Of a stretch of DNA of 24,357 nucleotides, positions 1-9,699 are shown piece by piece (position 1 is the first letter of the stretch; each line of letters begins with the position of its first letter). A program made the translations under genes and the position numbers. Source of the DNA: a virus; IMG/VR virus record IMGVR_UViG_3300030520_001144, positions 1 through 24,357 of that record. One strand, given 5' to 3'. The notes beneath the pieces are model-generated. The model was given only the letters and a program-made list of their open reading frames with translations. It did no database searches and was not told the origin of the DNA.

Positions 1-2520
1 TCAAGCAGCTAGTTCCGCAAGCCGGCCAGCGCTTCCAATCCGCTCATAATAGCGCTGCCGGCCGTATGGCGCCGGAAAGTTCAGCAAGGCACCCATCTGC
101 TTCCAACCCGGCACGCTCCGCATCGCGCGTCCCAACGCCTGCTGATTGGCGCCAGCATATGCGCTAGCTTCGCGCTGCAGACCCTCACGCCAGACCTGGA
201 CAAGGCAAACAACATCGCGAAACTTGCCTTCGCCGTCAGCGGCGATATCACCGCTGGCGATTGGCTTGTCGAGCCATTGCGAAATCTGGCCGACCAGTGC
301 ATCTTCTGGACTTTCCACGCGACGCGACTCCTGCAACCGCACCGCTTCTTCCGCAGCGTCATGATCCGCAAGATAGAGCGGCAAATCGCCTGTCGACATA
401 GGCAGGTCGATACGCATCTGTCTGTAGATGGCGACCGCTTCCGCCCATAGATGATCGACATTCTCCCGAAGCCGGGGAATATCGATCATCTTGACATGAC
501 ATTCCACCGGAAGGAACCGGCGCCCGCCGGTAGCATCGCGCAGATATTCCTGATCGTTGGTCGAGCCTATGAAAATCGATTGCCGCGGAAACTCGCCAGC
601 CCGGCGAGCATAGGCAAGACGTGCCCGGTCGCTGCCGCAACTGATGAAGGCCTTAATCGACCTTACATCGGCACGACTGAAGCCGGATAGCTCCGGAACC
701 TCGATCAGCCATTTGCCTTGCATCAGCTCGATCATCTGCTTTCGGTCGCTAAAATCTCCTTCAAGTTCGGCTGCCCAGTGGCGGCCAAGTATCCGGATGA
801 AGGTTGATTTGCCGCGGCCCTGAAGGCCTTCCAAGATCACCGCCGTATCGAATTTGATGCCCGGTTCAAAGATGCGGGCCACAGCCGCGACAAGCATCAG
901 GCGGGCAACGTGGCGGCTGTAGGGCTTATCTTCCGATCCTAGGTAATCGACAAACAGACTGTCACAGCGAGGAATGCCGTCCCATGATAGGCCGGTCAGA
1001 TACTCGCGAACCGGGTGGAACGCGTTGCCGTTTGCCGACAGCACGATCGCGGCTTTCAGATCACGATCGGAAACCTTGAGACCGTAGCCGCCTTGGGTTT
1101 TCGGAGCTTCTAGGATCGAGCGAATTGCGAAATCGCGGTCGTCCGACCAGAGATCTCCGTTCAGTGTGTCCTTCACGTCCCAAACGCGTCCAGTGAGCTG
1201 GCGCGTTTCCTTCGCGGCATTTTTCCGGACCTTCGCCTTGGTGCCAGGCGGGGTCCGCTGCACGGTCTCCTGCGTGAACTCATTGAGTTGCGGCAGCCCG
1301 ACCAGGCGCGGATCGTTGCATACGATCAGTTCGAGGTTATGGAGCGTCGGTTTGATGGCAGCGGTCTCGGTGAGATCGAGAAGGGTCCGCCATGGCAGGC
1401 CCTCCGATCCAGCATCATCGTCGGCGAACATGGCGTCGAAGTCTTCGGCTTCCGTGGTGGCGGGAGCGTCATCGCCGAACAGATCGTCGAAGTCTGTGCT
1501 GGCGGTAGCCGAGGCAGGGGTCTCGGGAGCATCATCCAGATCGTCGAAGGCATCCGCGAAGCTGGCAGCGCGGGCGTCCTGCACCCATTGGCGGACACTG
1601 GCGAGCGTCACCGGCTGCCGGCGATTGCGACCGAAGCCACGATAGCGGCGCAACTCGGCGCGCTCGTTGCTGCCGACCATGAACTTGGAGCCGCGCTTGC
1701 TGTGCTCCATCCATAGGTTGAAGCCCTCGATCGACCCACCGAACTGGTGGTGCAGCGCCTGGCCGAGCGTCACCCAATCCGTGCGATCGTCGATGCGGTC
1801 GACGGGGATTTCGGATAGTTCGCGATCGAGTTGGCCGGGTTTGAATTCCAGCGGCGGCCGGGTCTCGAATGCGTAGGTCGTGGTCTCGGCGGCGCCCAGC
1901 GCCTCGATCACGTCGCCGGAGATATACGGCCCGATGCCCATATCCAGCGCGTCGAAGTCGAACTCGCGCAGCCAGGTATAAGGCTTGCCGGTATCCGGAT
2001 GGATCGAATTTGGGAAAGCCGTTTGTTTGCCTGTCCCAAACAGCTCGATCTCCCAATCCAGACTCCAAACGTCCCGCTGCTTTTTGCCGTCGAATCGCCG
2101 ATGCTTCCCTTCGCTGACAGCGAGTTTCCGGCCGAAGAACGGGCGATCGGACACGAAGTAGAGGTGACGCGATTCACCGCCGGAGCCGGACGCCACGCAT
2201 GGCAGAGACCCGAGCGGGATTCCGGGAAACAGGCGCCCGAACGCCTCCCAAGCCTCATCCGCCAGATCAGGAATGCGGATGTCGAGATCTATTGCGTGCA
2301 GGTATCCGCCGGATGTCAGGGCGGACGGTTCGCCGAGACGCACGCCGACGTTGTTGCCGGGCGCATAGGATGCGCGCAATTGGTCGATCGTGCAAACCGG
2401 CGCCTCCGACCAATTCTCGCCGATTGGTGCCTTCGAGCGCTCCTTTAACCATTGAAGCGCGAATCCAGCTTCAACAAACGGAGAAATATCGAAGTCATTT
2501 GCGCCTAAAGCGATGTTCAT
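1..2520 (-). CDS. Prim-pol primase fused to VapE-type helicase
   Basis: Replication protein of the island, predicted to prime and unwind DNA. Counting from the upstream ATG at 2580 (859 aa), a bifunctional primase-polymerase domain spans about 25-225. It holds the acidic motif LHAIDLDI (94-101), SRHLYF (137-142) and the E-x-FGTGKQTAFP stretch (178-190). A primase C-terminal helical domain follows (about 255-335), then an acidic linker (341-395). The VapE/SF3-like ATPase covers about 480-720, with Walker A GLQGRGKS (585-592), an acidic WLIEVPE strand (624-630) and GSTNDQEYLRD plus GGRRF (672-688). I prefer the ATG at 2520 (839 aa): AAGGA lies about 10 nt upstream, and the 2580 start has no visible Shine-Dalgarno (SD) sequence. 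The stop is at 1-3, so the gene is complete. It is last in the AlpA operon, 132 nt after the 104-aa gene. Confidence 0.9.
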   Translation of the reverse strand: MNIALGANDFDISPFVEAGFALQWLKERSKAPIGENWSEAPVCTIDQLRASYAPGNNVGVRLGEPSALTSGGYLHAIDLDIRIPDLADEAWEAFGRLFPGIPLGSLPCVASGSGGESRHLYFVSDRPFFGRKLAVSEGKHRRFDGKKQRDVWSLDWEIELFGTGKQTAFPNSIHPDTGKPYTWLREFDFDALDMGIGPYISGDVIEALGAAETTTYAFETRPPLEFKPGQLDRELSEIPVDRIDDRTDWVTLGQALHHQFGGSIEGFNLWMEHSKRGSKFMVGSNERAELRRYRGFGRNRRQPVTLASVRQWVQDARAASFADAFDDLDDAPETPASATASTDFDDLFGDDAPATTEAEDFDAMFADDDAGSEGLPWRTLLDLTETAAIKPTLHNLELIVCNDPRLVGLPQLNEFTQETVQRTPPGTKAKVRKNAAKETRQLTGRVWDVKDTLNGDLWSDDRDFAIRSILEAPKTQGGYGLKVSDRDLKAAIVLSANGNAFHPVREYLTGLSWDGIPRCDSLFVDYLGSEDKPYSRHVARLMLVAAVARIFEPGIKFDTAVILEGLQGRGKSTFIRILGRHWAAELEGDFSDRKQMIELMQGKWLIEVPELSGFSRADVRSIKAFISCGSDRARLAYARRAGEFPRQSIFIGSTNDQEYLRDATGGRRFLPVECHVKMIDIPRLRENVDHLWAEAVAIYRQMRIDLPMSTGDLPLYLADHDAAEEAVRLQESRRVESPEDALVGQISQWLDKPIASGDIAADGEGKFRDVVCLVQVWREGLQREASAYAGANQQALGRAMRSVPGWKQMGALLNFPAPYGRQRYYERIGSAGRLAELAA

Positions 2521-2593
2521 TGGGAATGCGATCCTTGCATTATTCCCGAACGACGCGTATGTAATGCCTTGTCCAAGCATTGTCGTTCGGTTG

Positions 2594-2626
2594 ACGCCGC
2601 CGGGGAGGTCCAGATCCCGGCGGCGT
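2594..2626. promoter_or_regulatory. Perfect 11-bp hairpin before the primase-helicase gene
   Basis: ACGCCGCCGGG (2594-2604) and CCCGGCGGCGT (2616-2626) are exact reverse complements around an 11-nt loop. The stem extends outward by a G-T and a T-A pair. It lies in the only real gap of the operon, between the 104-aa gene stop (2653) and the primase start. No T-run follows on the minus strand, so it is not a standard intrinsic terminator. It may be an mRNA attenuator or processing site, or part of a replication origin recognised by the neighbouring primase-helicase. The structure is seen; the role is inferred. Confidence 0.6.
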
Positions 2627-2652
2627 TACTGTTTCACGACGGTCGATTAAAG

Positions 2653-2967
2653 TTAGACCACCGACCAATCACTGGCCGTCGTCGTAACCGGGTGACCGCG
2701 AAGCGACTCACGTTGCGCAGCAGAGAGGTCGCCGGGGTCCGCAATCAAGGCGCAGCGGATGTCCTCACCCTCGACTCGGATGGCGAACCGCATGCGCGCA
2801 GTTTTCTCGATCCCGATCGATACCTCGACCAATTGTCGAGCTTGTATTTCGGCGTCGCACACCTTGCTCGCGACATGTCTAGGCAAGCCTTTTGCAACGA
2901 GACATCGCATTTGCACGCGACGCCATTTCGGCCATCGGCTGCCCTGCCGCGGATACGTCCGGCTCAT
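2653..2967 (-). CDS. Hypothetical protein, 104 aa, in island operon
   Basis: I do not recognise a family. The product begins with a basic stretch (SRTYPRQGSRWPKWRRVQ) and continues with a mixed alpha/beta region (about 20-85) ending DWSVV. It has a normal amino-acid mix without low complexity. The main support is position: its ATG overlaps the stop of the upstream 167-aa gene by 4 nt (ATGA at 2964-2967), the same coupling used by the other genes of this operon. The basic N-terminus could bind nucleic acid, but that is a guess. The plus-strand reading frames over this stretch look like shadows. Confidence 0.65.
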   Translation of the reverse strand: MSRTYPRQGSRWPKWRRVQMRCLVAKGLPRHVASKVCDAEIQARQLVEVSIGIEKTARMRFAIRVEGEDIRCALIADPGDLSAAQRESLRGHPVTTTASDWSVV

Positions 2968-3467
2968 TCGCCCGATGCCTTGCGGGCTTTGTATCGAGCA
3001 TTCGTCCGTCGCGCCGCCGCAGCGGAAACCCCGTCTCTCTTGCGGCGCGCTTCATCGGTTGTCGCTGCGGCGGCCGATACGTTCGATCCCGATCTCTTTT
3101 CCGGCGCAGCGCCAACCGGCGAGGCAGCCAGAAGCGACTGAGCCTCGGCCGCCGATAGACTGGTATTCGCTGCAATATGCCGCGCTTGGGTCGGGCGCTC
3201 CTTAGCTTCGGCAAGGGCCAAAATTGCGCGTTCCCTATCGGTGTTTCCTGCCTCCAGGGGCGGGACCTTGATCAGCTGGTCCGCCGCGGCAACCGGGCGG
3301 TTGAAGCCCTTCAGTCCCACGCGCGCGGCGAGTGCCTGGAGGGTCGCCGCGCGGGGGGTAACGGCTGGCGTAGATGGGTCGCCCGCCGTCTTAGTAAACC
3401 CCTTCAGTCCGACGCGCGCCGCGAGATCCATACGTGCGGCGAGGCGTGATTCAGGTGTGCCGGTCAT
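2964..3467 (-). CDS. Hypothetical protein with LAARVGLKGF repeat, 167 aa
   Basis: No firm family. Two exact copies of the decapeptide LAARVGLKGF lie at about 15-24 and 46-55, separated by a Thr/Pro/Ala-rich spacer. The middle section (about 78-118, ERAILALAEAKERP then ARHIAANTSLSAAEAQSLL) resembles the helical tail seen after some phage S49/ClpP-type head proteases, which is only a weak clue. The C-terminus (about 138-167) is Ala/Arg/Lys-rich and strongly basic, suggesting DNA or RNA contact. The ATG overlaps the upstream gene by 4 nt and the stop overlaps the next gene by 4 nt, so it is translationally coupled on both sides. Confidence 0.7.
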   Translation of the reverse strand: MTGTPESRLAARMDLAARVGLKGFTKTAGDPSTPAVTPRAATLQALAARVGLKGFNRPVAAADQLIKVPPLEAGNTDRERAILALAEAKERPTQARHIAANTSLSAAEAQSLLAASPVGAAPEKRSGSNVSAAAATTDEARRKRDGVSAAAARRTNARYKARKASGE

Positions 3468-3703
3468 GCCACGATCCTTTCGAACACTTCACGCTCGGCG
3501 TCGTCGAGTTCACGGGCGGCTCCTGCTGCCAGCAACTCGGCGATCACGATGGGGTTAGACTCGGCGAACATCTCACCAGGCTGCAGCGTTTGCGAACGGA
3601 CACGCATGTTCGGTTCGCCCTGGGCATCATATCCATTGACGACGAGACCAGTGGCATCCGGATGGGTGCGGACGATCGAATGGATAGCTTTGAGGTTGGT
3701 CAC
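3464..3703 (-). CDS. Hypothetical protein, 79 aa, GTG start
   Basis: Small acidic protein of unknown function. The N-terminal half (MTNLKAIHSIVRTHPDATG) looks alpha/beta. The C-terminal half (NPIVIAELLAAGAARELDD and on) is helical and ends FERIVA. The start codon is GTG at 3701-3703 with a strong Shine-Dalgarno AGGAGAA 6-7 nt upstream, the best in this operon. The GTG overlaps the stop of the preceding coiled-coil gene as GTGA. The strong SD inside a coupled operon suggests the protein is made in larger amounts than its neighbours (inference). Confidence 0.75.
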   Translation of the reverse strand: MTNLKAIHSIVRTHPDATGLVVNGYDAQGEPNMRVRSQTLQPGEMFAESNPIVIAELLAAGAARELDDAEREVFERIVA

Positions 3704-4362
3704 TTGCTGTTCTCCTGAAGAAAGGCAGTAATCTGGGCAGCGCGGGCAAAAGCTGCGCGGTGAAGCTGATCGTAATTTAGCGAAGCCGGGCGAAATCGTC
3801 TTGGAAGCCCATCGATCATCTTCCGAACGGTAATCGAGCCGGAAAGGATGACGGGCTGATCCCCGCCCGAAGTGTACTTGTCGCCAACGGTTCGGACTCT
3901 GACGATGTCTGATGCAAGCAAATCGACTGCCGGATCTGCTAACGTCGCAAGCGTCGCCTGGATCTGATCAATAGCAGGGCCTTGCAGCTCGCCTAGAACA
4001 CCTAGCATAGCCAGATCAGACGGCCGGCGTGCGGCCTCAAGCGCGCGTTCTTTCTCAGCTATCCGTTCGTCGAGCAGAGGAAGTGCCGCCATAAGCGCCG
4101 GAATCTCGTCATCTAGGCGCGAAATCTTTCGCGACCGACTGGCCTTCTCCGGTGCGGCGGCCGGCCCGTCCACGAGGCGTACAGCGCGGTCGCGTTGATC
4201 TGCTTCACGCTGGCGGGCGAGATCCTCCTTCTTCGTTTTGAGATCGAACTGAAATTGCGCCTTCTTGGCTCGTTCCGCAGCAAGTTCTGCAGCGGCGATT
4301 TCAACCGCTTTCATGGCGGCGGCAGCACTGGCGACCGCCTGCGTAGGAGTGAACGCGTTCAT
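3700..4362 (-). CDS. Hypothetical coiled-coil protein, 220 aa
   Basis: No family recognised. Residues about 15-60 and 85-115 are rich in Ala, Glu, Lys and Arg with heptad-like spacing (AELAAERAKKAQFQ, then LDERIAEKERALEAA), so coiled coils are likely. The C-terminal third (about 120-220) is more globular, with VRVRTVGDKYTSGGDQP and a final helical stretch ending FLQENSK. I chose the ATG at 4360-4362 because it overlaps the stop of the AlpA-type gene as ATGA, like the other junctions. An ATG further upstream (4419) would run deep into the AlpA-type gene and add an unlikely Arg/His/Cys-rich stretch. Structural or DNA-organising roles are possible but unproven. Confidence 0.75.
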   Translation of the reverse strand: MNAFTPTQAVASAAAAMKAVEIAAAELAAERAKKAQFQFDLKTKKEDLARQREADQRDRAVRLVDGPAAAPEKASRSRKISRLDDEIPALMAALPLLDERIAEKERALEAARRPSDLAMLGVLGELQGPAIDQIQATLATLADPAVDLLASDIVRVRTVGDKYTSGGDQPVILSGSITVRKMIDGLPRRFRPASLNYDQLHRAAFARAAQITAFLQENSK

Positions 4363-4610
4363 CGTGCAGCCCCGGCGATGGCTTCCGTTGCCCAGCGCGA
4401 AATGACTGCATCGAGCCACGGCTTTGGGACGCCGGTCGCTCGCGCGCCAAGCTTGATCGGCGTTGGCACGAGGCCGCGAGAGGCTTGCTCGTAAAAATGC
4501 GGCACCGAGAAGCCAAGATACTCAGCCGCATGTGCAGGACGAAGGATAGGACCATGGGCAGGAACATCAGACCATGGCGGCGTATCCGGTTCGGCGTTCT
4601 GTTTTGTCAT
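4359..4610 (-). CDS. AlpA/excisionase-type helix-turn-helix regulator
   Basis: An 83-aa DNA-binding protein of the AlpA/MerR-like excisionase type. The core ILRPAHAAEYLGFSVPHFYE (about 22-41) followed by IKLGARATGVPK (53-64) and WLDAVISRWA matches the usual AlpA layout: choose-site helix, recognition helix, then a wing ending in a short helix. In P4-like elements such proteins act as excisionase and as regulator of the integrase promoter (family knowledge). It is the first gene of the six-gene operon that ends with the primase-helicase, and it lies downstream of the integrase pair on the same strand. The SD is weak (GGTGAGA). Confidence 0.85.
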   Translation of the reverse strand: MTKQNAEPDTPPWSDVPAHGPILRPAHAAEYLGFSVPHFYEQASRGLVPTPIKLGARATGVPKPWLDAVISRWATEAIAGAAR

Positions 4611-4708
4611 CGTGTCTCACCGTGCCGGGTGATCCGGCCCACGTAAGATCAGATGATTCGCCGTATATTGGTATCCGCTGATTTTGAGGATGTTTTATAC
4701 ACGCGGAC
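4611..4708 (-). promoter_or_regulatory. Gap with likely promoter of the AlpA operon
   Basis: This 98-nt gap separates the integrase-linked gene (stop at 4709) from the AlpA-type gene. It is AT-rich for this genome in 4641-4700, with TATA-like stretches (for example TATAAAAC on the minus strand near 4691-4698 and TATACGG near 4661-4667). No clean -35/-10 pair stands out. Near the start codon a 5-bp hairpin, GCCGG (4624-4628) and CCGGC (4634-4638), would lie in the leader. A promoter here is inferred from position. Confidence 0.4.
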
Positions 4709-5431
4709 TCATTCGTAGATCGCGCTCGTTATTTTGGACGCAGCGACCATGAGATATCCAACGACTTTTTGGATATGCAAAACGGAAAGAGCCATCCGCG
4801 AGGCGGTGGTTGGATCAGGCTTGTCGGAGTTCCTGCGCCGGGCGGCCATTCGGTCGGAAAACTGTGATCGCAAAGATGGCGCACTGGGAATGTTGATTCC
4901 GAACCGATGTTGCCACTCAGACAGGTCTCTCCGATGCCTCCCGCCGAATTTATCGGCATCACTTCGCAGCTTTGTATCGTGATCGGCGAGGCTTTTAGCC
5001 GCTTGGGCCATGGTCGCGCTCGGATGCTCTTCGAGAAAATTGTGCATATATCGATCTCTAGCGATATGCTCATCATGCCTGGTCGAACGGGCGGCCGCCG
5101 TAACATCGGGACTTTCCGATATGACAAAGCCCGGCTCGCCGTGCCTAATAGCTTGGCGAACCGCTAACGCCTGCCAATCTTCAAGAGTCGGCGTGTCTGT
5201 CGCGATGCCATACCTCCTAAAGAGGGACCGCAGCCGATCAGCGGCGTCTGCATCGAACTCGGCGACCGATTTTCTGTGTGTTGATACCGCTGTTGTATAT
5301 TCGATAACAGCTTGCGGAGAGATTTCAGAAACGAGAATTTCTTCGCCGTTATCGCCGCGCTTGTAGCGCGCGAACGGCGGGACGGGGCGCTCGCCCGGAG
5401 GAATGAGATCGGCGTAAACGTCGGTCTTCAT
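4709..5431 (-). CDS. Unknown protein coupled to the integrase, 240 aa
   Basis: I do not recognise the family. From the ATG at 5429-5431 the product begins MKTDVYADLIPPGERPVPPF. It is charged throughout, with many Asp, Arg and His residues in the middle (ARSTRHDEHIARDRYMHNF) and an Arg-rich stretch near 208-215 (MAARRRNS). A short hydrophobic segment lies near the end (about 215-233, including IQKVVGYLMVAA). That could be an amphipathic or weak membrane helix. The start overlaps the integrase stop as ATGA, so the two are almost certainly translated together. A role in integration, excision or island maintenance is possible from context only. Confidence 0.7.
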   Translation of the reverse strand: MKTDVYADLIPPGERPVPPFARYKRGDNGEEILVSEISPQAVIEYTTAVSTHRKSVAEFDADAADRLRSLFRRYGIATDTPTLEDWQALAVRQAIRHGEPGFVISESPDVTAAARSTRHDEHIARDRYMHNFLEEHPSATMAQAAKSLADHDTKLRSDADKFGGRHRRDLSEWQHRFGINIPSAPSLRSQFSDRMAARRRNSDKPDPTTASRMALSVLHIQKVVGYLMVAASKITSAIYE

Positions 5432-6603
5432 GCCTCGGGGCCTTTTGCAGGCGGGGTGCAGTATGCTGCCCACGCGTTCATGAGATCGCGCCGCTTCTCG
5501 AATAGGTCGCCGCGCCTGTAAGCAGCCTCCGCCTTATTTGCGATGGTGTGCGCAAGGGCCATCTCGCAAACTTCGTGAGGGAAGCCCGTCGTCTCCGCCG
5601 CCCAATCCCTGAATGTCGACCGGAAGCCATGGACCGTGACTTCAACCCCCGTTCGTCGCAGAAGCATCTCCATCGCCATGGTAGACAGCGGCTTTGTCCG
5701 ATCGGTTGTCCCAGGAAAAACAAACTCGCTGCCACCTGTGGTCTTCTGCGTGGCCAATACGTCCATAACGGCAGGAGACAGAGGCACGCGGTGTTCCTTG
5801 CCCGCTTTCATCCTACTGCCCGGAACCGTCCAGATCGCTTTTTCAAGATCCATCTCGGTCCAGCGCGCAGACAGCACCTCGCTAGTGCGTCCCGCGGTAA
5901 GAATAGTAAATTCGAGAGCACGAGCGGCGCTTGCAGTCCGCCCTGCTATGTCGGTCATGAATCCAGCTATTTGATCATAAGGCAGTGCTGCGTGGTGTCC
6001 TCGCGTAAGCTTGCCCCTTGGCGGAAGCACTTGGTCTAAATGGCCGCGCCACCGAGCCGGGTTTTCCCCCGACCGGTGACCCTGAGCTTTAGCGAAATCC
6101 AAAACACGTTCGATTCGACCGCGGACGCGGGAAGCCGTCTCTGACTTCGTCGTCCAGATAGGCTCTAGCACGGCTAGCACGTCCTTCGTTTCGACCGTAC
6201 CCACGCCCATCGGCCTGAGTGGCTTCGCGTAGACCAACAACGTCATCTTCCACTGGCTGGCGTGTTTCGGATTGCGCCAGCTTGGAAGCATATTTTTTAT
6301 AAGTGCATCGGCACAGTCACCGAACGTAACCTGGTCAGTCCCCTTGCGGGCGGCGATCGGGTTGACACCTGTCGCGACATGTTCGCGCGCTTGGCGAGCA
6401 AGCTCGCGGGCTTTCGCCAGCGAAACATCGCGCGCGGAACCGAGTCCCATCTCGCCGTGCTTCCCATTCCAGCGAAACAGGAAGATCCATCGCCGGCCGC
6501 CGTTAGTCGTGTTCAGATAGAGACCGCCGCCATCCGCATGGCGGCCCGGTTCCGTCACATTTTTCACGAACTGAACGTTCAGACGGTTGATCTCGCGCGC
6601 CAT
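5428..6603 (-). CDS. P4-type tyrosine integrase
   Basis: Site-specific recombinase that would insert and excise the island. From the ATG at 6601-6603 it has 391 aa, normal for the P4 family. An N-terminal arm-binding DUF4102-type domain covers about 1-85 (GGGLYLNTT, WIFLFRWNGKHGEMGLGSA), then a SAM-like core-binding domain (about 92-185) and the catalytic domain (about 205-375). Visible active-site residues are R239 in TAGRTSEV, H325 and R328 in VHGFRSTFRDWA, H352 in LAHTI and Y362 in AAYRRG, with K267 likely. The frame stays open to 6786, but residues added by earlier ATGs do not look like the family. It is next to the proposed att site. Confidence 0.93.
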   Translation of the reverse strand: MAREINRLNVQFVKNVTEPGRHADGGGLYLNTTNGGRRWIFLFRWNGKHGEMGLGSARDVSLAKARELARQAREHVATGVNPIAARKGTDQVTFGDCADALIKNMLPSWRNPKHASQWKMTLLVYAKPLRPMGVGTVETKDVLAVLEPIWTTKSETASRVRGRIERVLDFAKAQGHRSGENPARWRGHLDQVLPPRGKLTRGHHAALPYDQIAGFMTDIAGRTASAARALEFTILTAGRTSEVLSARWTEMDLEKAIWTVPGSRMKAGKEHRVPLSPAVMDVLATQKTTGGSEFVFPGTTDRTKPLSTMAMEMLLRRTGVEVTVHGFRSTFRDWAAETTGFPHEVCEMALAHTIANKAEAAYRRGDLFEKRRDLMNAWAAYCTPPAKGPEA

Positions 6604-6649
6604 GCCTGCCCCAACAGCAGAAGCCGACGTTACCATATGTCGTCGGACT

Positions 6650-6722
6650 CTAAAAGCGGCGTATCCGGTAGTATCGTGGACAAACAGGCACTTATCGGGT
6701 GACAACCTGTCACTAAAAGTGG
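6650..6722. promoter_or_regulatory. Dyad and paired direct repeats upstream of integrase
   Basis: A perfect dyad GTGACA-acc-TGTCAC lies at 6699-6713. Two 10-nt direct repeats, CTAAAAGCGG (6650-6659) and CTAAAAGTGG (6713-6722), differ at one base and start 63 bp apart, about six helical turns. All sit between the integrase start (6603) and the att fragment (6757). That is where P4-type elements place arm sites for integrase and excisionase and the integrase operator. The dyad could be bound by the AlpA-type protein or by integrase itself. Sequence pattern seen; function inferred. Confidence 0.45.
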
Positions 6723-6756
6723 TCCTAAGAGGTCGATTTTCGCTGGTATAGAGGAG

Positions 6757-6769
6757 TCCGTCTCCGCCA
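6757..6769 (+). other. att site: tRNA-Ser 3'-end fragment
   Basis: TCCGTCTCCGCCA matches the 3' end of a tRNA-Ser gene: CGTCTCC is the 3' strand of a GGAGACG acceptor stem, then discriminator G (normal for tRNA-Ser) and CCA. No T-arm, anticodon arm or 5' half precedes it, so it is a remnant. It is followed by GAATTTTTTAA (6770-6780), a plausible tRNA terminator T-run. This is what remains when an island integrates into the 3' end of a tRNA gene. The intact tRNA-Ser should lie on the plus strand at the left end, outside the window. From 6781 to 6911 only small hairpins are seen (AACCC/GGGTT at 6796-6811; GCTCG/CGAGC near 6859-6878). Confidence 0.65.
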
Positions 6770-6911
6770 GAATTTTTTAAGACCATGCGTTAAACCCCCA
6801 AAAGGGTTGGCATATTCGAGCGCCCTGTACGTGGACGTCCGTTGCTACCGCGCGGCGGGCTCGAGCATGTGCGAGCTGGCAGCGGCGCCGGCGGTTCCGC
6901 TATCGGCGGCC

Positions 6912-7619
6912 CTACTGGCGAGCGGCGCTGCTCCGAAGCAGCGTAAAAAATCCGAACAACGAAAGCGCCGCGAGTGCGAACCACGTCAACGCGTAGACGA
7001 GGTGGTTGTTGGGAAAGCGCACGACCGTCAGCCCGCCCAGCGGCCAGCCGCCCGGATGGGGCGTCGCATCCGCATCGACGAAATAGGGTGCGACGCGCGA
7101 TAGTCCTCGGGCGCGGGTGATCGCGGCGACGTCCCGGGAATACCAGCGGCCGCTGCCCGGCTGGTTGGCCTGGAGCAGGCTGCCGCCGGGTTCCGTTAGC
7201 CGCAGGAGACCGGTGACGATCGTCTCGCGATCGCCCGAGGCGTTCGACAGCCGGGGCACCGTCGCGTGCCAAGCGGGCGGTACGAAGCCTCTGTTGACCA
7301 GAACGATGAAGCCCCGGTCGGTTTGAAGCGGACTCATCAGCCAGAAGCCCGGCCCCTGCTCGGTCAGCGCCTGGACGAGCGTATCGCGCCCGGCAAGGAA
7401 ATGACCGCGAACCTCAACGTGACGATAGGCGTCGTCCGCGGCGGTCACGCGATCCCAGCGCGGTTCGCCGGGCGGAGACACGGGCGGCGCGTGGACCCGC
7501 TGGTCGACGGCCTCGATCAGCGCGAGTTTCCAAGCGCGCCGCTCCATCTGCCACACGCCGAGCGCGCAGAAGGAGAGCGTCGCGACCAGGCAAAGCGTGA
7601 GGAAAAGCCAGCGTTTCAT
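6912..7619 (-). CDS. SURF1-family cytochrome oxidase assembly protein
   Basis: Inner-membrane assembly factor for the haem a site of aa3-type cytochrome c oxidase. It has 235 aa, normal for bacterial SURF1. It shows the expected two-helix layout: an N-terminal membrane segment (about 4-22, LFLTLCLVATLSFCALGVWQ) and a C-terminal one (about 209-229, LVYALTWFALAALSLFGFF). Between them is the periplasmic domain with VLVNRGFVP (about 111-119) and the typical NNHLVYALTWF entry to the last helix. ACAGGA lies just upstream of the ATG. In many relatives it follows cox genes; here it stands alone, divergent from the ABC-F gene across 205 nt, with no cox gene in view. It is core chromosome flanking the island. 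Confidence 0.93.
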   Translation of the reverse strand: MKRWLFLTLCLVATLSFCALGVWQMERRAWKLALIEAVDQRVHAPPVSPPGEPRWDRVTAADDAYRHVEVRGHFLAGRDTLVQALTEQGPGFWLMSPLQTDRGFIVLVNRGFVPPAWHATVPRLSNASGDRETIVTGLLRLTEPGGSLLQANQPGSGRWYSRDVAAITRARGLSRVAPYFVDADATPHPGGWPLGGLTVVRFPNNHLVYALTWFALAALSLFGFFTLLRSSAARQ

Positions 7620-7824
7620 TCCTGTCCCGTAACGCGTCGCCGTTCCGCATGCGAGTGGCGATCATGCCGATAGCCCGCTATGCTGGCAGTCGCATTTTGT
7701 GCGAGGGCGGTGCCAGCTTCAGGCGAGACCCCGCCACGCCGGCAAGGGCCCGAGCGGCCGCGACCGGGCGTGCGTCGATTCAGCCCCCTTTGTGCATCGC
7801 ACCAATGCTGCTACGCGCCCGCCC

Positions 7825-9699
7825 ATGCTTTCCTATCGCGACATCACCGTGCGGCTCGGCGGCCGGGCCATCATCGAGGGCGCCTCCGCGTCGATCCCGC
7901 CCAAGGCGCGCGTCGGGTTCATCGGGCGTAACGGCGCGGGCAAGTCGACGCTGATGAAGGTGCTCGCCGGGATGCTCGATGCCGACAGCGGGTCGGTCGA
8001 CATGCCGCGCGGCGCCAAGTTCGGCTATCTGCGCCAGGATGCGCCGGGCGGCGCGCTCTCGCCGTTCGAGACCGTGCTCGAAGCCGACACCGAACGCGCC
8101 AGCCTGCTCGCCGAGGCCGAGACCGCGCTCGACCCCGATCGGCTGGGCACGATCTACGAGCGGCTCGACCAGATCGACGCCTATACCGCCCCGGCGCGGG
8201 CGGGCGCGATCCTGAAAGGCCTCGGCTTCGACGACGCCGCGCAGGCGCGCCCGATGGAGAGTTTTTCGGGTGGGTGGCGGATGCGCGTCGCCCTGGCGAG
8301 CCTGCTCTTCACCAACCCCGACCTGCTGCTGCTCGACGAGCCTTCGAACCATCTCGATCTCGAAGCGGTGATGTGGCTCGAAGGATTCCTGCGCGCCTAT
8401 CGTGGGACGATCCTGCTGATCTCCCATGAGCGCGATCTGCTCAACAATGTCGCCGATCATATCCTGCATCTCGATAAGGGCGGGACGACGCTCTACGTCG
8501 GCGGCTATGACGCGTTCGAGCGCCAGCGCGCCGAGCGTGCCGCGCAGCTCGCCTCGGCTGTCGTCAAGCAGGCGGCGCAGCGCGAGAAATTGCAGGCGTT
8601 CGTCGATCGCTGGAAGGCCAAGGCGTCGAAGGCCAAGCAGGCGCAGAGCCGCGTGAAGGCGCTGGCGAAGATGCAGCCGATCGCGGCGATGGCGGACGAT
8701 CCCTCGCTGACCTTCTCCTTCCCCAATCCGGAAGGATTGAAGCCGCCGCTGCTGACGCTCGACAAGGCGTCGGTGGGCTATGAGGCGGGCAAGCCGATCC
8801 TGTCGCGGCTGATGCTGCGGCTCGATCCGGACGACCGCGTCGCGCTGCTCGGCCGCAACGGCAACGGCAAGACGACGCTCGCCAAATTGCTCGCGGGCGA
8901 TCTCGCGGCGATGGACGGCGTGGTGACCTCCGCGCCCAAGCTGACCGTCGGCTATTTCACTCAGTATCAGGTCGAGGAACTCGATCCGACCGATACGCCC
9001 GTCGATCTGATGGGCCGGCTGATGAAGGGCGCGGCGCCGGCGGCGGTGCGTTCGCAGCTCGGCCGTTTCGGCTTTTCCGGCGACAAGGCGCTGACGAAGG
9101 TCGGCAAGCTGTCGGGCGGCGAGCGCGCGCGGCTGGCGCTGGCGCTGGTGACGCATTCGGCGCCGCATCTGCTGATCCTCGACGAGCCGACCAACCATCT
9201 CGACGTCGACACGCGCGAGGCGCTCGTCCAGGCGCTCGCCGAATATCGCGGTGCGGTCGTCGTGGTCAGCCACGATCGCCACATGCTCGAGCTGGTCGCG
9301 GATCGGCTGGTGCTCGTCGATCAGGGCACCGCGCAGGAATATGACGGCACGATCGACGATTATGCCAAGTTCATCATCTCGGGCGGCAGCGGCGAGGCCA
9401 AGCCCGCGTCGGCGGGCGGCGTTGGTGCCCGCAAGGAGGATCGCAAGGCGGCCGCCGATCGCCGTGAGGCGACGCAGGGCATCCGCACGCGGATCAAGGA
9501 CGCCGAGACCGAGATGGCGCGGCTCGCCAAGTCGATCGCCGACATCGACGCGGCGCTGGCCGGAACGCCGCCGACGCCCGCGATGAAGCTGATGACGATG
9601 GGCCAGCTGATGAAGCGCCGTGGCGACGTCGAGCGGCTGCAGGCCGCGGTCGAGGCGGAGTGGATCGAGGCGACCGAAGCGCTGGAAGCGGCGGGGTAG
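7825..9699 (+). CDS. ABC-F family ATPase (YheS-like)
   Basis: A soluble protein with two ATP-binding cassettes and no membrane domain. ABC-F proteins bind ribosomes and act in translation or, in some branches, antibiotic protection; the exact role here is unknown. It has 624 aa from MLSYRDITV. Cassette 1: Walker A GRNGAGKS (34-41), signature SGGWR (148-152), Walker B LLLLDEP (167-173). A linker at about 232-300 holds coiled-coil arms (Lys/Gln/Arg-rich). Cassette 2: Walker A GRNGNGKT (343-350), signature LSGGERARLALA, Walker B LLILDEPTNHLD (449-460). A C-terminal coiled coil runs about 535-622. The ATG at 7825 starts the family's normal N-terminus. No SD is visible, and an earlier in-frame ATG (7699) adds only Arg/Pro-rich sequence. 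Confidence 0.93.
   Translation: MLSYRDITVRLGGRAIIEGASASIPPKARVGFIGRNGAGKSTLMKVLAGMLDADSGSVDMPRGAKFGYLRQDAPGGALSPFETVLEADTERASLLAEAETALDPDRLGTIYERLDQIDAYTAPARAGAILKGLGFDDAAQARPMESFSGGWRMRVALASLLFTNPDLLLLDEPSNHLDLEAVMWLEGFLRAYRGTILLISHERDLLNNVADHILHLDKGGTTLYVGGYDAFERQRAERAAQLASAVVKQAAQREKLQAFVDRWKAKASKAKQAQSRVKALAKMQPIAAMADDPSLTFSFPNPEGLKPPLLTLDKASVGYEAGKPILSRLMLRLDPDDRVALLGRNGNGKTTLAKLLAGDLAAMDGVVTSAPKLTVGYFTQYQVEELDPTDTPVDLMGRLMKGAAPAAVRSQLGRFGFSGDKALTKVGKLSGGERARLALALVTHSAPHLLILDEPTNHLDVDTREALVQALAEYRGAVVVVSHDRHMLELVADRLVLVDQGTAQEYDGTIDDYAKFIISGGSGEAKPASAGGVGARKEDRKAAADRREATQGIRTRIKDAETEMARLAKSIADIDAALAGTPPTPAMKLMTMGQLMKRRGDVERLQAAVEAEWIEATEALEAAG

Follow-up and report, generated by a model that had tools for sequence, protein, structure and literature searches.

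A tRNA-Ser(GCT) 3' end as the probable attR of an integrative island in a sphingomonad

The closest described systems are the islands found by their Islander signature, which in the account of that approach (PMC4383910) comprises an island lying between a tRNA gene (tDNA) and a displaced 3' fragment of it, with the fragment downstream in the same orientation and a tyrosine integrase gene within. As set out there, the intact cognate tDNA is expected at the other end in the same orientation, 2-200 kb away, and the fragment is allowed to overlap with integrase domains (PMC4383910). In sphingomonads, the 3' end of a seryl-tRNA gene is described as the attB for pPDL2, an integrative mobilizable element of Sphingobium fuliginis, whose site-specific recombination was assayed in E. 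coli (PMC3516476). The locus described here would share the layout of the Islander islands, its tDNA end lying outside the record and being seen in relatives only.

We analyzed a window of 24,357 bp, which is the whole of an IMG/VR record, and conclude with a probability of roughly 0.94 that positions 6757-6769 are the attR of an integrative island, placed at tRNA-Ser(GCT) in a sphingomonad chromosome by the integrase encoded at 5428-6603. Four things are seen directly: the tRNA remnant, the integrase, the pairing of remnants with intact tRNA-Ser genes in relatives, and the direct repeats of those relatives. This likely fixes where the island stops on the right, the IMG/VR record having merged it with chromosomal genes and a gene-transfer-agent-like cluster as if they were one 'virus'.

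Island and chromosome in one record

The record joins an island fragment to chromosomal SURF1 and ABC-F genes and a gene-transfer-agent-like cluster. It begins with the stop codon (TCA, minus strand) of one gene and finishes with the stop codon (TGA) of another, and thus looks like a provirus call trimmed to gene boundaries from a longer host contig, not a single element. The features considered here are:

1-2580, minus strand: island primase-helicase (matches to Prim-Pol, PriCT_2 and VapE-like domains); the record ends at its stop codon
4359-4610, minus strand: small island gene with a weak HTH_17 profile match (E 0.016, below the cut-off)
5428-6603, minus strand: tyrosine integrase (Arm-DNA-bind_3, Phage_int_M and Phage_integrase; PF13356, PF22022 and PF00589, above cut-off)
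6757-6769, plus strand: displaced 3' end of tRNA-Ser(GCT), identical to intact tRNA-Ser(GCT) ends in relatives; core of the proposed attR
6770-6911, plus strand: chromosomal side of the proposed attR, with a T-run at 6773-6778
6912-7619, minus strand: SURF1 (Pfam match), first chromosomal gene right of the island

The integrase has the arm-binding, core-binding and catalytic domains of an arm-domain tyrosine integrase, and its residues R239, K266, H325, R328, H352 and Y362, which we take to be the catalytic R-K-HxxR-H-Y set, are kept in 39 or 40 of the 40 rows of an alignment. Of the genes expected in a P4-like satellite, the integrase and the primase-helicase are seen in this record, which is cut at base 1 and in which the helix-turn-helix gene is a weak match; by eye, the product of 4359-4610 resembles AlpA and is a possible candidate for an excision or regulatory protein. 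Three other island ORFs that were scanned have no Pfam match at E 0.001, and none of six island ORFs queried matches the relatives' loci compared with them at that threshold. The primase was rejected as a link between the window and other islands because it passes E 1e-100 in 4 of 397 Sphingomonadaceae genomes. A DNA search of positions 1-6770 against plasmids matched 16 records, and the eight listed all match in the integrase region. Scans of viral contigs for records of the same species, queried with the integrase or SURF1, gave no relative; the primase matched three viral contigs at 59-60%, and the 22-kb stretches of them that were read contain no related integrase or tRNA.

To the right of 6770 the DNA is sphingomonad chromosome. 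SURF1 is followed by an ABC-F ATPase (the two occupying 6912-9699) and by a head-tail cluster with terminase, portal, protease, capsid and Rcc01698-like tail protein genes, which we take to resemble those of gene transfer agents. The nearest genome compared, the Sphingomonadaceae MAG G001, matches at 85% for terminase and 76% for SURF1. SURF1 was found in none of 80 sphingomonad loci around terminase (some of these being short contigs) and ABC-F in nine, and G001 has SURF1 on one contig and the ABC-F/terminase region on another; the position of SURF1 seems to differ within the genus.

The remnant, TCCGTCTCCGCCA at 6757-6769 on the plus strand, is made up of the 3' strand of the acceptor stem, the discriminator G and CCA, and is followed by GAATTTTTTAA up to 6780. 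The original prediction had read these bases as a tRNA-Ser 3' end with no tRNA body before it and a T-run behind it, and this holds: ARAGORN finds no tRNA anywhere in the window, no Rfam family reaches its gathering score there, and the T-run is in place. The spacing given there is likewise exact, as the integrase start codon is at 6601-6603 and the 13-mer begins 154 nt upstream. There is a single exact copy of TCCGTCTCCGCCA in the window, compared with an expectation from base composition of 0.0018 copies per window, or 0.00002 per 500 bases on one strand; two further sites each differ from it at two positions, and a total of three sites within that tolerance is not above chance (shuffles give a mean of 1.66, and 3 were reached in 25 of 100). 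With its terminal CCA and its identity to the tRNA-Ser(GCT) ends of relatives, the 13-mer is an end fragment of the tDNA and not an internal one. Neither the Pfam domains of SURF1 nor those of the integrase cover it, which places it outside the conserved part of a coding gene; the integrase frame stays open through it, and the tyrosine integrase gene is within the island.

Remnants and intact tRNA-Ser genes in relatives

Intact tRNA-Ser(GCT) genes whose 3' ends are these same 13 bases are present in 10 of the 11 relatives searched. Across these 11 genomes there are 20 copies, ten in intact tRNA-Ser(GCT) genes and ten without a tRNA body; four of the latter adjoin, in the same arrangement, an integrase 51-55% identical to that of the window, and six have no family integrase within 1.5 kb on each side. 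The reversed 13-mer, used as a control pattern, occurs three times in the same genomes. Because of the six bodiless copies without a family integrase, the 13-mer taken alone is weak and non-specific evidence.

A search with the integrase gives matches at E 1e-80 or better in at least 120 of the 397 Sphingomonadaceae genomes; up to four candidates were scored per genome, which makes this count a minimum. In the 420 bases upstream of int at 30 loci, drawn from the best 31 rows of this search, the exact 13-mer is present without a tRNA body and on the strand opposite to int at 12, a variant tRNA-Ser end at eight (L126, L128, L131, L132, L133, L138, L146 and L148), an intact tRNA-Ser on the same strand as int at eight, and no tRNA-Ser end at two (L143 and L153). 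The proposal that the fragment is an attachment site is thus supported. The lower-ranking integrase loci that were read, those of G001, G006 and G007, come from the 13-mer search. One relative, G009, has a complete 9-kb island of this integrase family (L118:4002-13230) encoding a 1255-aa protein with a SIR2-like domain, possibly a phage defence protein.

If the remnant is an attR, the island side must also hold an intact tRNA-Ser in the same orientation. This comparison covered 16 genomes with an exact remnant, 12 from the integrase search and four found through the 13-mer, and in all 16 ARAGORN confirms a tRNA-Ser(GCT) at the intact 3' end; a seventeenth match to the intact-end search, beside int in G126, is the remnant and lacks a tRNA body. 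In 14 genomes the remnant shares its contig with the intact gene, which lies on the predicted side and strand at a distance of 4.5-36 kb, the arrangement that Islander expects of the intact tDNA; in the other two (G006 and G007) the gene is on a separate contig. Genomes with variant remnants behave similarly: five of eight pair as predicted on one contig at 9-22 kb, with GGA (G303), CGA (G164), TGA (G355) and GCT (G052 and G331) isoacceptors, and two have the matching gene on another contig (G197, CGA; G090, TGA); for the eighth, G047, the pattern used finds no tRNA-Ser nearby. For the two loci with neither remnant nor gene beside int, a GCT-type 3' end lies 16 kb away on the predicted side in G233, matched by pattern only, and a CGA gene lies 5.4 kb upstream of int on the int strand in G057.

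On the SURF1 side, where an uninterrupted tRNA-Ser was looked for, six SURF1 regions examined in relatives contain no tRNA-Ser and a single tRNA-Ala. The queried SURF1 stretch is matched in 8 of 10 genus genomes, with a best DNA match of 76%, and since none of the ten is close enough to share the junction we regard this search for an empty site as uninformative and not as negative. Downstream of SURF1, G001 has 11 bases that match the remnant; this was taken as chance, as the flank does not align.

Proposed core anatomy, alternatives and apparent changes of direction

The direct repeats in the 16 remnant/tRNA pairs are 14 bp (eight pairs), 15 bp (three), 16 bp (three), 18 bp (one) and 24 bp (one) long, and the common repeat consists of seven bases (CTCCGTC; GTCCGTC in G001) followed by TCCGCCA. 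The core of a tyrosine recombinase site is formed by two inverted arms around a 7-bp overlap, and the repeats and arms fit such a core, which would be laid out in the window as follows:

6749-6755, plus strand: putative integrase-proximal core arm, TAGAGGA, matching the family's TGGCGGA at 5/7
6756-6762, plus strand: putative 7-bp overlap for strand exchange, GTCCGTC, placed from the direct repeats of relatives
6763-6769, plus strand: putative core-binding arm, TCCGCCA, also present in the tRNA (contributed by attB in attR)

The window core thus reads TAGAGGA-GTCCGTC-TCCGCCA. Its first overlap base, G, is common to the tRNA-Ser(GCT) and the remnant of G001, whereas this position is C in the remaining 15 of the 16 intact genes. 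The island-side arm matches TCCGCCA at 5/7 or better on the int strand in 20 of 25 remnants, the window included, compared with 1.6% of 5000 random 7-mers; the weak points are the arm of the window, at 5/7, and that of G001, at 3/7. The nearest relative in a tree of 40 integrases is 62% identical to the window integrase, and the target and overlap are therefore carried over from relatives. Possible arm-type sites are present just before int in many relatives (L127, L149, L151, L152, L119 and L122) as direct repeats of ~9-13 bases with a 12-base (or 24-base) spacing; in the window the sole candidate is a 10-mer pair 63 bp apart, which is too weak to claim.

In the proposed course of events the integrase would have recombined a circular island with the 3' end of tRNA-Ser(GCT), with strand exchange most likely across GTCCGTC between TAGAGGA of the island and TCCGCCA of the tRNA. 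The island's own copy of the tRNA 3' end would have restored the gene at the left end, outside the record, and the original 3' end would have been displaced to the right end, beside int. An intact plus-strand tRNA-Ser(GCT) ending in GTCCGTCTCCGCCA is accordingly predicted to the left of base 1 in the genome from which the window derives, and the island may still be able to excise.

Of the other explanations, the one that survives best, though we consider it improbable, is that the 13-mer dates from another or a previous island at that tRNA-Ser gene, with the integrase using another site, or marks the right-hand limit of one island in a tandem array. tRNA-Ser could be a hotspot, and an ORF beyond the intact tRNA-Ser of G001 (L121:3213-4427) looks by eye like the N-terminus of an integrase, making arrays or a second element plausible; however, the spacing and orientation of remnant and int in the window are those of the 20 of 30 family loci with a remnant, and SURF1 and ABC-F, not another island, lie to the right. 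A 13-base chance match in GC-rich DNA has very little to commend it: the six bodiless copies without a family integrase are spread over ~42 Mb in 11 genomes, but this background of ~0.14 per Mb makes a hit within a few hundred bases before int very unlikely, the same position is occupied in relatives, and their paired repeats speak strongly against chance. Equally far-fetched is the deletion or decay, with no recombination involved, of a tRNA-Ser gene that was once complete. It would account for the absent tRNA body, but in 15 of the 16 repeat pairs of relatives tRNA identity breaks off a single base to the left of the 13-mer, the window's identity to the G001 tRNA is seen directly to stop at the same base, and bacteria need tRNA-Ser(GCT).

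The integrase of the window belongs to a family whose sites lie in either direction relative to int. In the tree, 24 of the 40 integrases are labelled by an opposite-strand remnant, ten by a same-strand tRNA end, and six are unlabelled, L148 among them despite its mismatched remnant. The two core directions are clustered yet do not form single clades: the opposite-strand label needs six changes, five of them forced by well-supported branches, compared with 12.7 in shuffles, and the same-strand label needs five, four of them forced, compared with 9.1, in a tree with many weak branches and some long rows, where the window's place lacks strong support and the unlabelled rows inflate the counts. 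Core direction relative to int has thus apparently switched several times, with tRNA-Ser kept as the target.

We give even odds to a joint reading in which the family is fixed on tRNA-Ser 3' ends, the overlap follows the isoacceptor (GCT, CGA, GGA or TGA), and core direction flips, leaving either an intact gene or a remnant beside int. Flips would be eased by the near symmetry of the attP core (TGGCGGA-N7-TCCGCCA in members with the window's direction), the overlap alone setting direction. Core symmetry was rejected as a general rule, as the distal arm matches TGGCGGA at 3/7 in Caulobacter phage DMCA and 1/7 in a Bradyrhizobium plasmid, and the idea therefore applies to the window's direction alone. 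The mildly new element lies in how the integrase family behaves, not in the site in the window, and we make no claim that flips of core direction are unpublished. The paired attachment sites are a ready set for asking how one integrase family switches tRNA-Ser isoacceptors and reverses relative to its target.

Comparison with known systems

The three Pfam domains of the integrase are, we presume, shared with P4/CP4 integrases. By sequence it matches the arm domains of CP4-like integrases (3jtz and 3rmp) and of a phage integrase (3ju0), and its residues 92-190 match the phage-integrase structure 2khv, but it falls far below the cut-off of PRK09692 (NCBIfam; 105 vs 434 bits). The integrase of phage DMCA (PQ480021) is 50.5% identical to that of the window, and a tRNA-Ser-like 3' end, ACCCTGTCCGCCA, lies ~190 bases upstream of its int gene (L217:1804-1816), on the same strand as int and so opposite to the arrangement in the window. 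The Bradyrhizobium plasmid pBb323S2c encodes an integrase 48% identical and also has a tRNA-Ser-like 3' end upstream of int (L220:1811-1834); a gene annotated as a major capsid protein is nearby. Both tRNA-Ser-like ends are likely attP sites.

The element pPDL2 is absent among the 20 listed of 90 matching plasmid records, and is likened to the window by its description and not by integrase sequence: pPDL2 uses, and the window island would use, a seryl-tRNA 3'-end attB in a sphingomonad (PMC3516476). Its attP is described there at the 3' end of int1, unlike the window (PMC3516476). The window island is very probably another case of the known tDNA-targeting type of island, with its textbook signature.
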